From Bdellovibrionota bacterium (GTDB lineage Bacteria > Bdellovibrionota > Bdellovibrionia > Bdellovibrionales > Bdellovibrionaceae): a stretch of 64,000 nucleotides of DNA. Below, piece by piece: positions 1,151 through 17,784 of this stretch (within the stretch, counting starts at the first letter, position 1; the number at the start of each line of letters is the position of its first letter). The notes beneath the pieces are model-generated. The model searched no databases. It was given only the letters and a program-made list of their open reading frames with translations, and was not told the DNA's origin. The stretch lies in contig CAUJGP010000023.1 in assembly GCA_963170155.1 (NCBI GenBank), forward strand, positions 1 through 64,000, read 5' to 3'. Made by a program: the position numbers and the translations under genes.

Positions 1151-1497
1151 TTAGACAGCAGGATCTAAAATCCAATCCCCATGAAACATCGATGCACGGG
1201 CTGCCGTGAGCTTTCTGAAGCAGATGGAAGTGCCTCTCTCGAGTTTGCTACCGACCTCGAATTTTCGTTTTAAAAGATCGTTTTGTTGACTTAGGACCAT
1301 GTCAGAATTTTCTAGGCGCAAAAAATTGTCATCGGCCTACAATCAAATTTAAATAATTTGGTGGGTAGCGGGTTGGTCATAAATGCGGAGGCTTCGCGCC
1401 ATAAACCACTTTTATCGCTGGATTTTCCTCTAATTATTTTATCAATCTTTCCTTCTGTAAGAAAGTAATCCCCTTTAGCTAAACTGGATTGCGGTGG
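1151..1497 (-). pseudogene. Frameshifted remnant of an unknown gene
   Basis: Two overlapping minus-strand frames, 1497-1312 and 1336-1151, read like one protein broken by a frameshift in 1312-1336. The first includes GDYFLTEGKIDKIIRGKSS and WREASAFMTNPLPTKLFKF; the second includes FLRLENSDMVLSQQNDLLKR and a C-terminal FHGDWILDPAV. No start codon is visible; the upstream part may have been lost where the transposase relic at 1494 begins. The family is not recognised. Neither half has a ribosome site, so expression is unlikely. Confidence 0.35.
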
Positions 1498-1781
1498 TTA
1501 GTCATTTTGATAAGGCATTACTGAGATATAGTTTTATTAAAAGTTGTAAGTCTATTTGTGGTGTTATGATTTTATTGGAAGCCGCGGCCAAGAGTGATAT
1601 CAGTCATTTAGAATTGCGGTCCAATAATGATTGTCATTACGCAGCTAAAATATTTAGGGAAGAATTAACCAGACTTGGAACTCATACACGAACGATGATT
1701 AACACTCTCAAAGGCAATGCCATTATTGAGAGATTTTTTAGGAGCTTGAAGCAAGAATATGTCATGCTTTTAATGAGTTGA
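1494..1781 (+). pseudogene. Decayed IS3-type transposase (integrase core fragment)
   Basis: From about 1590 the frame matches the end of an IS3-family OrfB/integrase catalytic core: LELRSNNDCHYAAKIFREEL corresponds to the usual 'HSDNGSQY' block, and AIIERFFRSLKQEYV to the terminal catalytic-Glu block. The second catalytic Asp is replaced (RSN instead of HSD), the first is not present, and the frame stops before the normal C-terminus. A short open stretch in another frame (1783-1875) may be the shifted tail. No terminal inverted repeats were found. From 1876 to the next gene nothing further is seen. Confidence 0.65.
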
Positions 1782-4166: not shown

Positions 4167-5513
4167 TTATAATTGGGTCGATTTTTTCATCTTATTTTTG
4201 AAGAGTTGATAAGCTGGGATGCCCGCTAAGATAAAAGCTAAGCCAATACCGCTTTCACGTGGAGATGTTATTAGTGTGTTAATGAGCAATAAAATGGAGA
4301 GGCTGACAAAACCAATGGGGAGCCACGGATAGAACGGCACCTTGAATGGTCTTTTTATATCGGGTTGTTTTTTTCGAAAAATTAGAATCGAAGCGGTAGT
4401 TAATGCATAAAAGATCCAAGCAGCAAAGACGACATAGTCTGTAAGTTGGTCAAAACTACCAGAAAGTGCAAGGATACTGGCGATGCAGCCTTGTACGAGA
4501 ATAGATACGATGGGAACGCGTGAACCTTGGCTGACTTTTGCTAAAAAGCGCGGAAACAAGTCATCTTGTGCCATTGCAAAGGGAACGCGAGCTCCGGTGA
4601 GAATTGAACCATTCATTCCTCCCAAAGCTGAAATTACAAAAGCAATGGATAGAATCACGGAGGCCATGCTCCCGATGACCACAGTAGCAGCTTTGGTGGC
4701 AACAGGGAGAGATCCTGGCATCGCATTGGAATAAGCTGAAGCCACTTCTTCGAAGGGGAGTGCCATAAAGTAGGTTAGATTGATGAGAATATAGATGGTG
4801 AGAATAATTATCATACCGAATGATAATGCGATTGGAATGGTACGGCCTGGGTTTTTAACTTCACCTGCAGCCATGGGCATATTATTCCACCCATCGTATG
4901 CCCATAATGCCGCTAAGGTCGCTGCTCCAAAAGCATTCCATCCCGTCCATTGATCATTTCCTGAAAAGAGATTTGACCATGCGTCTGCTGATGGCACAAA
5001 GACTAGAAGTGACAGAGCTAAGCCTAGGATCATGACTACTTTTAGCAGAGTGATGAAAGCCTGTACGCTTCCCCCAATAGAGACCGAGAAACAGTTAAGA
5101 AGTGTGAATGTGATGATGAAACCCACAGCTAAGAACTGAGGATTTTCCATTGGAATCACACTTTTCAGGAATGTTGCAGCTCCTACGCCATAAGCGGCAA
5201 TAGAGCCCGGGGCACCAATCCAAAATCTCATCCAGCCATACAAAAAAGCAAGACCATTACCATAACCTTCTTTGAGAAAAGCATACTCACCACCGGCGCG
5301 TGGAAACAAAGCTCCGAGTTCAGCATAGCAAAGGGCTCCTGCCAAAGAGAGTAGTCCTGCAAAGACCCAACAGCCAAGCACCCATGCTGGTGAACCCATT
5401 TGCTGGGACATAACGGCGGCTTTGAGAAAAACACCAGTGCCAATTACGGTTCCAACAACAAGAGCCATAGTTTTTTTGAGATCAAGGCTGCGAATAAGCG
5501 TTTTGTTTTGCAT
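4167..5513 (-). CDS. APC-superfamily amino-acid permease
   Basis: The 448-residue integral membrane protein has about 12 hydrophobic segments. The first membrane helix has the conserved glycine-rich substrate loop (VVGTVIGTGVF, residues 20-30), and the region around residue 200 reads LWAYDGWNNMPMAAGEVKNP, typical of the LAT/APC amino-acid transporter branch (COG0531). It imports or exchanges amino acids across the inner membrane; the specific substrate cannot be read. It is transcribed alone and is convergent with the hydrolase; its upstream region (5514-5662) would hold the promoter. An alternative is a polyamine or cationic amino-acid exchanger of the same superfamily. Confidence 0.85.
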   Translation of the reverse strand: MQNKTLIRSLDLKKTMALVVGTVIGTGVFLKAAVMSQQMGSPAWVLGCWVFAGLLSLAGALCYAELGALFPRAGGEYAFLKEGYGNGLAFLYGWMRFWIGAPGSIAAYGVGAATFLKSVIPMENPQFLAVGFIITFTLLNCFSVSIGGSVQAFITLLKVVMILGLALSLLVFVPSADAWSNLFSGNDQWTGWNAFGAATLAALWAYDGWNNMPMAAGEVKNPGRTIPIALSFGMIIILTIYILINLTYFMALPFEEVASAYSNAMPGSLPVATKAATVVIGSMASVILSIAFVISALGGMNGSILTGARVPFAMAQDDLFPRFLAKVSQGSRVPIVSILVQGCIASILALSGSFDQLTDYVVFAAWIFYALTTASILIFRKKQPDIKRPFKVPFYPWLPIGFVSLSILLLINTLITSPRESGIGLAFILAGIPAYQLFKNKMKKSTQL

Positions 5514-5662
5514 AGCTACACTTTAGCAGAGGATTCAATCAGGAATCTATTAGAATTATTAAAACTAAATAGAAATAATTATATTCTTCTACAATCCTAT
5601 TAAACGATAGCTATTTAGCTCAAAAAATTTTGCGAATTTTAACTGTGGTGATATTAAACCAT

Positions 5663-5746
5663 AACATAGCGGCAGACCTCTTTTTCCGTTATTCTAACGG
5701 ATTGGTATTGTTTGCTTCAACGAGGTGAAGCCGCTATGTTTTTTCT
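5663..5746 (+). ncRNA. Putative structured small RNA or palindromic element
   Basis: A perfect 11-base inverted repeat (AACATAGCGGC at 5663-5673, GCCGCTATGTT at 5730-5740) encloses a second pairing (ACCTC/GAGGT) and an inner hairpin CCGTTA-TTC-TAACGG. On the plus strand the outer stem is followed directly by six T residues, as in an intrinsic terminator. It lies in the 287-base gap between the permease start and the flagellin stop, both on the minus strand, so it is not simply the terminator of either gene. It may be a plus-strand sRNA with its own terminator, or an 80-base palindromic mobile repeat. No match to a known RNA family is recognised. Confidence 0.45.
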
Positions 5747-5800
5747 CAATAATCCACAACGTTTCGAACGTTCTCAATGCCTTAAAAGGATTAAAATCCA

Positions 5801-6634
5801 TTAACCTAACAATTTAAGAGCCAACTGCTGAGTATTATTGGCTTGACTCAAAATACTAACGGCCGCTTGCTGTAGTATTGTGTTTCTCACCATTTCACTG
5901 GATTCAACAGCAATGTCTGTATCGCGGATTCGTGAATTGGCTGCTGAGAAGTTCTCATCAGTGATTCCCAAATTATTCGTCGTTGATACTAAACGATTTT
6001 GCATGGCTCCAAAGTTAGCTCTAATTGCATTGACTGAAACCAGAGCGTTGTCGACTACATTAATGCTATTTTGAGCTGCTTCTTTATTGGCAACAGATTC
6101 AGCTGTTAACCCTAAAGCTTCCAATGAAGAGTTTGCAGCAGAAGCATTGAATGAAATCCTGTCTTCAAAGGGATCATTTTGCACTCCCACTTGAATATCA
6201 ATGATTCCTCCGGTGCCATTCAACAGCTCAAAACCGTTATAGCTTGTATTTTCAGTGATCCTTTGAATTTCTGATTTGAGCTGTTGATATTCAACATCCA
6301 CAAATTTTCTTTCAGTATCACCGATAGTGTCCGAAGACGCTTGGATGGCTAATTCACGGAGACGAATCAGCATATTGGAAACTTCATTAAGGCTTCCTTC
6401 TGCGATTTGTACTAATGAAATACCATCTTGAGCATTTCGGCTTGCTTGCCGTAGTCCTCGAATTTGTGCTCTGAGGTTTTCAGAGATAGCCAATCCTGCG
6501 GCATCATCAGCAGCCTGATTGATTCTGTATCCAGAACTCAAGCGCGCCATAGATCTCTCAAGATTGTTACTCGTGGAAAACATATTTTTACGAGCATTGA
6601 TTGCTGCAACGTTTGTTGCGATCCTTAAACCCAT
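5801..6634 (-). CDS. fliC: Flagellin
   Basis: This 277-residue flagellar filament subunit starts at ATG 6634, 8 bases after AAGGAGGAT. The N-terminal D0/D1 helices (MGLRIATNVAAINARKN; RLSSGYRINQAADDAAGLAI) and the C-terminal D1/D0 helix ending LSQANNTQQLALKLLG are intact, with almost no variable D2/D3 region, typical of the compact flagellins of Bdellovibrio. It is exported by the flagellar type III apparatus and assembled outside the cell. A second flagellin gene lies upstream on the same strand; several non-identical flagellins per filament are usual in this group. The 703-base gap between them suggests a separate promoter. Confidence 0.95.
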   Translation of the reverse strand: MGLRIATNVAAINARKNMFSTSNNLERSMARLSSGYRINQAADDAAGLAISENLRAQIRGLRQASRNAQDGISLVQIAEGSLNEVSNMLIRLRELAIQASSDTIGDTERKFVDVEYQQLKSEIQRITENTSYNGFELLNGTGGIIDIQVGVQNDPFEDRISFNASAANSSLEALGLTAESVANKEAAQNSINVVDNALVSVNAIRANFGAMQNRLVSTTNNLGITDENFSAANSRIRDTDIAVESSEMVRNTILQQAAVSILSQANNTQQLALKLLG

Positions 6635-6674
6635 TTCCTATCCTCCTTGCATGGCTGAATCCTCCTTGATAAGT

Positions 6675-6711
6675 GCCATCCGATTGGCAATCAGAAGCAT
6701 TCTGCTTCTGA
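6675..6711 (-). repeat. Two adjacent inverted repeats in the flagellin leader
   Basis: TGCCA/TGGCA (6675-6679 and 6686-6690) and CAGAAGCA-TTC-TGCTTCTG (6693-6711, perfect 8-base arms) lie 40-80 bases upstream of the flagellin start. If transcribed they would fold in the 5' untranslated region; they may affect mRNA stability or bind a regulator. Confidence 0.4.
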
Positions 6712-7110
6712 GGTTTAAGATAATATTCTTTTTTAAAGATGATATTACCCCGTTAACTTTTCGGAAAAAAACAGAAAGAAGTGAAGTCTAGATTTTTTGT
6801 TTTGGGTCCAGATTTTTAAAGGGAGATAAATTGAAATTACAGACAAAGAAAATGAACTACAGTGGTGCATAAAAAGACCACGATCACGTTTTCAGAGTGG
6901 ATTCTTAGAAGTTTTATTTCAATCTGCAATCACTTGTTAATCAACGATTCATCTTCTTTTTTGCAAAAGAAAGTAAAACTCATTAAAGTTCAATGATAAA
7001 TCACACTTTTTTATATTAACATCCATAATGAGCGTGACAGTACCAATGCTCATTATCATGTCATATTTTTTGTTTATGTTCACAACATTCATGCCCTACA
7101 TGCTGAATGA

Positions 7111-7160
7111 TACATGCAAAAGCATGTAAAATTGGGAGTCATACCGAGTTAAAGTATGAC
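7111..7160 (+). repeat. Pair of hairpins in the inter-flagellin gap
   Basis: TACATGC-AAAA-GCATGTA (7111-7128) and GTCATAC-N9-GTATGAC (7138-7160, extended by GGG/CCC with a bulged A) sit in the gap 6635-7337, which contains no convincing gene. A third inverted repeat, AATGAGC/GCTCATT, spans about 7027-7054. None is followed by a T run on either strand, so they look structural or regulatory rather than terminators. The rest of the gap is AT-rich and featureless. Confidence 0.35.
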
Positions 7161-7337
7161 CCCAGATGCAGGAAACAAATACATTAGTTCAGCAAAAACA
7201 GGCTCATGCTAAACTGAGGGCGATCGATAAGTATCGCAAACCAAATCAATTAAGAAGTTGTTATTTTAATATAACATCATCTCTTCAGGAGTATCTTGGT
7301 TAGAGGTTAATAAAAAATTATTAAATCTCTTAACCTA

Positions 7338-8186
7338 TTATCCTTGCATTGACTTGCTCAGTAGAGACAGTGCAGTGTTTGCCGATTGGTTCGCTTGCGC
7401 TAGAACCGCGGTGCCGGCCTGGAGCAAGATATTATTTTTAGTAAATTCACTGGTTTCTTCCGCTACATCAACATCGCGAATACGAGAATTGGCTGAGGCC
7501 ATATTTTCAACACTGACTTGGATGTTGCTGATGACAGATTGGAGTCGATTCTGAATGGCACCGAAGTCGGCGCGCATGGCAGAAACACTGACAATGGCTT
7601 GGTCAATAGACGACAAAGCATTTTGTGCAGAGGCTTTATCCGCCACACTTGTCAGATTCACTCCTAATGCGGCTGAGTTACCATCAGCACGAGAGGCATC
7701 AAAAGAGATTCGGTCAATCTCGGGATTATTTCTCGTGCCTACCTGAAAGTCCAGAATAGAACCGACCCCTGAGAGAAGTTGAGTTCCATTGAATTCTGTC
7801 CCATCGGCAATTCGATCAATTTCCGAAATGAGCTGATCATATTCCACATTGAGGAATTGTCTCTCAACAGGACCGATCGTGTCTGAGGCAGCTTGAACGC
7901 TGAGTTCTCGCAGTCGAATAAGGATAGAACTGATTTCATTCAGCCCACCTTCTGCAACTTGTACGAGGGAAATACCGTCCTGCGCATTTCTTGAAGCTTG
8001 TTTGAGGCCGCGAATTTGGGCCTTCAAATTTTCTGAAATTGCGAGTCCGGCAGCGTCGTCACCTGCACGGTTAATTCGATACCCAGACGAGAGTCTTTCC
8101 ATACTCTTGTCTAAGCCTACTTTGGTTCCCCACATTGTTCGCTGAGCATTCAACGAAGCAGTGTTGGTATTAATACGCAAACCCAT
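7338..8186 (-). CDS. fliC: Flagellin
   Basis: This is a second filament subunit of 282 residues. ATG 8186 follows a strong AAGGAGGAGG site; an in-frame start at 8219 would add 11 residues with no ribosome site, and the family begins MGLRI. The D0/D1 N-terminus (MGLRINTNTASLNAQR; RLSSGYRINRAGDDAAGLAI) and C-terminal helix (ANQSANTALSLLSKSMQG) are intact and the hypervariable domain is missing. It differs from its downstream neighbour mostly in the middle and at the C-terminus, so this is an old duplication. A sigma-28-like promoter lies about 90 bases upstream. Confidence 0.95.
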   Translation of the reverse strand: MGLRINTNTASLNAQRTMWGTKVGLDKSMERLSSGYRINRAGDDAAGLAISENLKAQIRGLKQASRNAQDGISLVQVAEGGLNEISSILIRLRELSVQAASDTIGPVERQFLNVEYDQLISEIDRIADGTEFNGTQLLSGVGSILDFQVGTRNNPEIDRISFDASRADGNSAALGVNLTSVADKASAQNALSSIDQAIVSVSAMRADFGAIQNRLQSVISNIQVSVENMASANSRIRDVDVAEETSEFTKNNILLQAGTAVLAQANQSANTALSLLSKSMQG

Positions 8187-8275
8187 GATTCCTCCTCCTT
8201 GAAGATTCAACCGACTCATCCTTGGTCAGTCGGGGTTTCTTTTCTAAAACCCAATGGGTACTCTTCTTGATTTGC

Positions 8276-15788: not shown

Positions 15789-15864
15789 GCTGGCTTAGCT
15801 CAATTGGTAGAGCAGCTGATTTGTAATCAGCAGGTTGCGGGTTCGAGTCCCATAGCCAGCTCCA
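15789..15864 (+). tRNA. tRNA-Thr(TGT)
   Basis: This 76-base cloverleaf has acceptor GCTGGCT/AGCCAGC with encoded CCA, anticodon stem CTGAT/ATCAG with anticodon TGT (reads ACA) and T-loop GGTTCGAGTCC. It is the first of four tRNAs in the order Thr-Tyr-Gly-Thr upstream of tuf, the same order as in the Escherichia coli tufB operon. Confidence 0.97.
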
Positions 15865-15890
15865 AGTTTAAAGTTGATAAGGTTTATATT

Positions 15891-15977
15891 GGAGAGATGC
15901 CCGAGTGGCTAAAGGGGGCAGACTGTAAATCTGCTGGCCTTGCGCCTACGTAGGTTCGAATCCTACTCTCTCCACCA
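15891..15977 (+). tRNA. tRNA-Tyr(GTA)
   Basis: This 87-base class II tRNA has a long variable arm. The acceptor is GGAGAGA/TCTCTCC with encoded CCA, the anticodon GTA sits within GACTGTAAATC, and the T-arm is AGGTTCGAATCCT. It decodes UAC/UAU. The cognate synthetase gene tyrS lies at about 55 kb in this window. Confidence 0.97.
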
Positions 15978-16008
15978 ATCAATTTTAGCTGGGTCCTTGT
16001 GGCTCTGG

Positions 16009-16085
16009 GCGGGAGTAGCTCAATTGGCTAGAGTATCAGCCTTCCAAGCTGAGGGTTGCGGGTTCGAGACCCGTCTCCCGCTCCA
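16009..16085 (+). tRNA. tRNA-Gly(TCC)
   Basis: This 77-base cloverleaf has acceptor GCGGGAG/CTCCCGC with encoded CCA, anticodon loop CTTCCAA (anticodon TCC, reads GGA/GGG) and T-arm GGGTTCGAGACCC. It is third in the tRNA cluster before tuf. Confidence 0.97.
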
Positions 16086-16132
16086 TTTTTTGTTGTATTG
16101 AGGTGGTGGCTTGAGTTGTTATTACCAGTAGT

Positions 16133-16207
16133 GCCCATGTGGCTCAGTGGTAGAGCACACCCTTGGTAAGGGTGAGGTCGCGGGTTCAATTCCCGCCATG
16201 GGCTCCA
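16133..16207 (+). tRNA. tRNA-Thr(GGT)
   Basis: This 75-base cloverleaf has acceptor GCCCATG/CATGGGC with encoded CCA and anticodon GGT in CCTTGGTAAGG (reads ACC/ACU). With the TGT isoacceptor it covers most Thr codons. It is followed by a 166-base AT-rich leader to tuf with no other gene. Confidence 0.97.
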
Positions 16208-17708: not shown

Positions 17709-17784
17709 AGGGTTGTAGCTCTAACGGTAGAGCGAAGGACTCCAAATCCTTAGGTTGTGGGTTCGAATCCCACCGGCCCTGCCA
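17709..17784 (+). tRNA. tRNA-Trp(CCA)
   Basis: This 76-base cloverleaf has acceptor AGGGTTG/CGGCCCT (two G-T wobbles), discriminator G, encoded CCA, anticodon CCA in GGACTCCAAATCC and T-arm TGGGTTCGAATCCCA. Its position between tuf and secE is common in bacteria. Confidence 0.97.

Follow-up and report, generated by a model that had tools for sequence, protein, structure and literature searches.

A hairpin beside a flagellin gene in a Bdellovibrionota bacterium as the probable orphan end of an IS256-family insertion sequence

A nested hairpin between a permease gene and a flagellin gene

The DNA analysed here, called the window, is a stretch of 64,000 nucleotides from a Bdellovibrionota bacterium. 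Pfam identified the neighbours of the hairpin studied below as an amino-acid permease gene and a flagellin gene (PF00669/PF00700), both on the minus strand, in agreement with the preliminary description of this DNA. At 5801-6634 and 7338-8219 (minus), two flagellin genes stand in tandem, both carrying the Flagellin_N and Flagellin_C domains. Elsewhere in the window, an ORF of 95 amino acids with NTLKGNAIIERFFRSLKQEYV lies at 1494-1781 (plus); it had no Pfam match at E 0.001, but its sequence resembles part of the integrase core of IS3-type transposases. A tRNA cluster (Thr-Tyr-Gly-Thr) is located at 15789-16207 (plus), and a separate tRNA-Trp at 17709-17784 (plus).

The outer stem of the hairpin pairs AACATAGCGGC (5663-5673) with GCCGCTATGTT (5730-5740) at 11 of 11 positions, a second stem joins ACCTC (5676-5680) to GAGGT (5722-5726), and an inner hairpin of 7 bp joins TCCGTTA (5685-5691) to TAACGGA (5695-5701). 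A run of six T at 5739-5744 on the plus strand shares two of its bases with the outer stem. All of these had been described correctly, apart from the inner pairing, which was given as CCGTTA/TAACGG and is one pair longer. RNA folding of positions 5650-5760 yielded -32.5 kcal/mol on the plus strand (z -5.09) and -35.2 kcal/mol on the minus strand (z -5.18). The preliminary description had named folding as a check; none of 200 shuffles reached the hairpin's fold energy on either strand, and the hairpin is beyond chance. Because z is about -5 on both strands, the fold by itself does not pick a strand.

Two other checks proposed there, Rfam and copy number, came back negative. No Rfam family matched the hairpin at its gathering score, and the best matches at a permissive threshold lay far below gathering scores. 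The hairpin is a single copy in the window genome (next DNA match E 0.3, next covariance-model match E 0.9), which argues against a mobile or REP-like multicopy repeat. A simple terminator scan did not return the outer stem, because its loop exceeds the length that the scan allows, and the totals of promoters and terminators found between 4500 and 7500 were not above those of shuffles.

Relatives of the hairpin and the lost transposase gene

We searched 59 genomes with a DNA query of 131 bases; besides the window, only genomes G029 and G057 gave matches below E 0.01. The G029 copies lay at contig ends, or a few to tens of bases from them, as do repeats that break assemblies, and that assembly held no transposase of the G057 kind at E 1e-10. 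In G057, the hairpin forms a leader directly 5′ of a 415-aa ORF with a Mutator-type PF00872 domain (E 2.2e-62). Terminal repeats bound the G057 element at both ends (GATATATTTTAGAAAGTTGTGGATTTG and GAAAAATTTCAGAAAGTTGTGGATTGC), and the 9-bp AATAAGGAC lies on either side of it, as judged by eye; target duplications of the IS256 family are 8-9 bp long. The GCCGCTATG arm of this element contains the transposase start codon. Its contig (L012, G057:C19, 11946 bases) holds one IS copy and is probably a circle of approximately 10.6 kb, because its ends are near-identical; one ORF on it is presumably ParA-like.

Within the order and phylum, the leader also precedes intact transposase genes in relatives: G117, G094, G325 and G339 have open frames behind it with 55-75% identity. 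Wherever an open transposase frame follows (G057, G117, G094:C102, G325 and G339), leader and coding sequence share a strand, equivalent to the minus strand of the window. Other copies were less complete. Locus L137 (G114:C124, 1501-1613, minus) is a second left end with a leader and no recognisable transposase behind it, on a contig that stops at the IS tip; in L141 (G094:C141, approximately 1580-1605, plus) the frame breaks about 20 codons past the start, at sequence which we take to resemble the end of an IS3-type element, perhaps a later insertion. A scan of genome contigs gave seven loci, all in records titled Bdellovibrionales, Pseudobdellovibrionaceae or Oligoflexia. Viral contigs contained neither a transposase relative nor a match to the stem pattern, and a DNA search of plasmids returned nothing matching window positions 5500-5800; 4318 of 72,556 plasmid records matched the transposase at E 1e-5.

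By comparison with these relatives, the window contains the following parts:

5749-5775 (minus): left terminal inverted repeat of IS256-family type, GAGAACGTTCGAAACGTTGTGGATTAT, with its tip at 5775; terminal-repeat profile score 28.4
5663-5740 (minus): structured leader, from 14 related folds, pair counts and a covariance-model match at 5662-5741 (minus)
5730-5740/5663-5673, 5722-5726/5676-5680 and 5685-5701 (minus): outer stem, Shine-Dalgarno stem and inner hairpin P3 of the leader
within the leader (minus): inner hairpin P2, of which the best fold keeps only three pairs
5676-5680 (minus): Shine-Dalgarno-like GAGGT of the lost transposase gene, paired with ACCTC, from the sequence and alignment with relatives
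5665-5667 (minus): ATG start codon of the lost transposase gene, within the outer stem, from the sequence and comparison with the G057 element
5691-5720 (minus): putative promoter-like TTGAAG-18-TAGAAT within the hairpin, a consensus match only, from which RNA would begin past the 5′ arm
5739-5744 (plus): T6 beyond the stem, antisense to the transposase, from the sequence

The window and the G057 element have ATGTTA in common, after which, by eye, similarity ends about two codons into the gene. On a profile built from ten terminal repeats, which include that of the window, the left repeat scored 28.4 and the runner-up between 4001 and 7500 scored 8.9; in 100 shuffled 3.5-kb sequences, 95% of the maxima fell below approximately 13.8. 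On the same profile, no right terminal repeat stood out in that range. In the window genome, the G057 transposase sequence retrieved nothing at E 10, and PF00872 had no match at E 1e-40; as a positive control, the transposase query did reach relatives across the order, in 17 of 140 genomes at E 1e-10. The window copy is a remnant of the IS256 family from which the PF00872 gene is absent. We consider it likely that the hairpin derives from an insertion sequence of the IS256 family (Mutator, PF00872), as its now orphaned left end, with the leader fold as a lock over the transposase start.

The earlier proposal of a palindromic miniature element thus had the mobile element right and its miniature nature wrong, there being one terminal repeat and one copy. 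Specifically, a MITE requires two terminal repeats, of which one was found, and either a MITE or a REP-like repeat requires many copies, of which the genome has one. The surroundings of CTGTGG (5643-5648), a candidate right terminal repeat for a miniature element, were not among the best profile scores. Readings as an integron attC site and as a retron were dropped upon the linkage to the transposase.

To what extent the hairpin still serves its host was considered from its surroundings and its state of preservation. It lies just downstream of the flagellin gene and on the same strand, and the host might have taken over the orphan end as a regulatory RNA or as a 3′-end structure of the flagellin transcript reading in. 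All outer pairs are intact despite the loss of the gene, whereas the stem of the degenerate copy in G118 is broken, and a precedent exists in the IS200 tnpA leader of Salmonella (PMC12594629). However, recent loss of the transposase explains the intact arms equally, P2 is eroded in the window, and the matches listed in the order search include no genome of the same genus by which age or selection could be gauged. We regard such a take-over as very unlikely: the window's lock, its gene lost, is most likely a relic, and a new host role for the hairpin is possible but unsupported.

Covariation, sense strand and start-site occlusion

Individual folds of 14 leaders followed one plan: the start codon lies in an outer stem, the Shine-Dalgarno sequence in a short one, and both stems enclose the inner hairpins P2 and P3; G118 has a degenerate copy with an interrupted stem. 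The arms of P3 vary yet stay complementary (TCCGTTA/TAACGGA, CGTCA/TGACG, GCTCGG/CCGAGC, CTGCCC/GGGCAG and, with a wobble, CGGGT/GCCCG). P2 and P3 rest on the individual folds and have no column count, because MAFFT left these inner hairpins unaligned. A covariance model built from nine leaders on the transposase coding strand also matched leaders outside the model set, in G114, G039 (three places), G118, G094:C141 and G029:C84. We counted 15 pairs in 14 distinct sense matches. Nine of these sequences had served to build the model, which the alignment also followed, so the count is tilted toward structure. Paired cells amounted to 89.4% (reached by 0/500 shuffles; 26-56% in slid controls), changes on both sides occurred in five pairs (1/500 shuffles), and the covariation score was 0.149 versus 0.105 in shuffles (0/500). 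Speaking against structure, further pair types numbered 8, fewer than the 9.7 in shuffles (499/500 reach). The leader is structured and covaries; a lack of covariation in related genomes was one of the two points that the preliminary description had named as speaking against its reading.

The inverted repeat could instead be a DNA site, e.g. a sub-terminal palindrome bound by the transposase, of which the RNA fold would be a by-product. Its sub-terminal position in a DDE-type element is consistent with this, and the wobble cells (7 G-U versus 7 A-C) are neutral on strand and fail to separate RNA from DNA. Nevertheless, the repeat coincides with the translation start across elements while its sequence changes, and the inner hairpins covary too; a DNA site is therefore very unlikely to be the main explanation.

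The sense strand of the leader follows from the position of the transposase gene and, less independently, from the model score, which in the window was 66.8 bits on the minus strand and 33.9 bits on the plus strand. The autonomous plus-strand sRNA proposed in the preliminary description found no support, the leader being on the coding strand of the transposase. As to the intrinsic terminator that was to end this sRNA, the T6 exists, but a T run of at least five just outside the arm occurs in only 5 of the 14 close leaders, window included. The hairpin and T run could still be primarily the terminator of a plus-strand antisense RNA of the element. The T6 lies beyond the stem on the appropriate strand, and PMC10266640 describes antisense RNAs over IS256 start sites in E. 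faecalis. Moreover, the nine bases outside the 5′ arm are mildly A-rich on the sense strand in the 36 elements for which all nine are present (0.39 versus approximately 0.32 for 9-mers drawn at random from those leaders, P = 0.006). In addition to the rarity of the T run, two observations argue against a primary terminator: a scan of 4500-7500 gave no promoter-like site on the plus strand between 4827 and 7000, and in the close group the 3′ arm always covers the Shine-Dalgarno sequence and start codon, a placement that a terminator does not need. We judge this explanation very unlikely, and the data leave room for antisense termination as a second role of the hairpin.

We determined whether transposase start regions pair with their leaders in elements from genomes of the order and the phylum (17 of 140 in the order search at E 1e-10; 21 of 368 at 1e-30; for PF00872, 29 of 368 at 1e-40) and from 26 hand-chosen plasmid records. 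Of 85 elements, 49 remained below 80% identity; for L084 and L105 the rule gave no start. The upstream sequence of L071 was too short, so that 48 elements entered the test. Their start codons were taken from annotation or set by a Shine-Dalgarno rule that ignored structure, and L041 and L072 were kept although they seem truncated or wrongly started. The measure was the mean probability of positions -18 to +3 pairing with the upstream leader, with dinucleotide-shuffled upstream leaders as the null; many leaders had already been inspected before this test was designed.

Pairing of the start region averaged 0.63 in the 48 IS256-family elements, versus 0.36 in shuffles. In 21 of them P was ≤ 0.05 (the remaining 27 lay above that level), 10 were matched by at most 1 of 150 shuffles, and 41 had a pairing of about 0.5 or more. 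In contrast, 46 control ORFs, all from the window and hence from one genome only, averaged 0.38, the same as their shuffles; the corresponding counts were 2, 1 and 17 (Fisher P = 5e-6 for elements versus controls, with kinship among elements making P-values too small). The result held at 17/43 (P ≤ 0.05) without the five closest elements and at 11/22 for plasmid elements alone. Pairing exceeded the element's own shuffle mean in 44 of 48 cases, barely so in L077, L087, L094 and L096; the four others were L023, L041, L072 and L082. The window leader itself scored 0.70 versus 0.45 (14/500 shuffles), and the annotated IS256 copy L085 had an occluded start at 0.82 versus 0.37 (0/150). Occlusion of the start recurs across the IS256 family on unrelated leader sequences. 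L074 and L075 carry an extra strong hairpin (CCCCTAGG...CCTAGGGG type) far upstream of the Shine-Dalgarno sequence, unlike the start-masking plan.

A proposed lock and its counterparts in other insertion sequences

We hypothesize that occlusion represses translation of the transposase. In leader RNA of the transposase strand (minus in the window), as folded for intact relatives, the 5′ arm pairs with the start codon and a CCT(C) segment with the Shine-Dalgarno sequence, enclosing two hairpins. A transcript entering from outside would contain both arms and be translated poorly into transposase, whereas one initiated within the element, past the 5′ arm, would lack that arm and be translatable. 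Such a foldback lock would keep the transposase silent when a neighbour is read through. The flagellin gene reads toward the former transposase gene on the minus strand, and flagellin transcription running in may be the sort of incoming transcript that the lock would face.

For RNAs starting past the 5′ arm, the start region was predicted to be unpaired at 0.56 versus 0.31 (47 sequences), a gain that arises partly by construction. Promoter-like sites within the hairpin occurred in 19 of 45 leaders (window included), compared with 12.7 expected (1/100 shuffles); further cut-offs gave 11 versus 6.5 (4/100) and, at the strictest score, 5 versus 1.8 (2/100). In five elements of Bacillota plasmids (L085, which is IS256, L086, L091, L093 and L097), a hexamer TACAAT, TATGAT, TAGAAT or TAAAAT comes after the end of the 5′ arm or straddles it; the closest relatives showed no convincing internal promoter. 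The modest excess suggests that native transcripts may start inside the hairpin. Support is good for the masking structure and weaker for a switch between read-through and native RNA.

Leaders of other insertion sequences hide translation starts as well. A stem-loop in the IS200 tnpA leader hides the ribosome-binding site of the transposase, and the leader was later put to use by the host (PMC12594629, PMC3196728); IS200 has two separate stem-loops, one of which terminates incoming transcripts (PMC3196728). The likeness of IS200 (IS200/IS605 family) to IS256-type leaders lies in this masking; the families are unrelated, and the window-type leader is a single stem around two hairpins, with the start codon within the stem. 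For ISPpu9, the 5′ UTR of tnp is reported to fold so as to bury the ribosome-binding site, and weakening the fold raised reporter expression 26-fold (PMC8450116); an antisense RNA opens the structure in that element. The buried ribosome-binding site is common to this element (IS110/IS492 family, Pseudomonas putida) and ours, while the transposases are unrelated. In our elements, too, the Shine-Dalgarno sequence and start codon pair with the upstream leader by an inverted repeat; to our knowledge, no structure-opening antisense RNA has been described for the window's group. IS10 and IS50 have foldback protection, in which incoming transcripts are masked and native ones are not. The logic proposed here is alike, although the families differ and, for IS256-type elements, there is only a hint that native transcription starts within the hairpin.

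Control of IS256 is attributed to promoter strength and an antisense RNA, and a leader hairpin is absent from that description as far as the available excerpt goes (PMC10266640). IS256 of Staphylococcus/Enterococcus belongs to the same PF00872-type family and has an occluded start, and its leader sequence is unrelated to the window's. See also PMC8944449 and PMC9330008. Among the titles and abstract openings listed in our searches of part of the open-access literature, none reported a leader hairpin for IS256-family elements. The start-masking leader is a known kind of control, here in a family where our literature search found none described. The boldest combination, a family-wide IS256 read-through lock together with an orphan lock that the host of the window kept to act on the incoming flagellin transcript, strikes us as highly improbable.

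The window shows that an orphan transposon end can mimic a free-standing sRNA. Locally, this relic is ordinary, yet it has brought to light a leader that masks translation starts across a large family of transposons, whose transposase relatives are widespread. If such a leader is family-wide, it would explain how elements stay quiet in strongly transcribed places, e.g. beside a flagellin gene.
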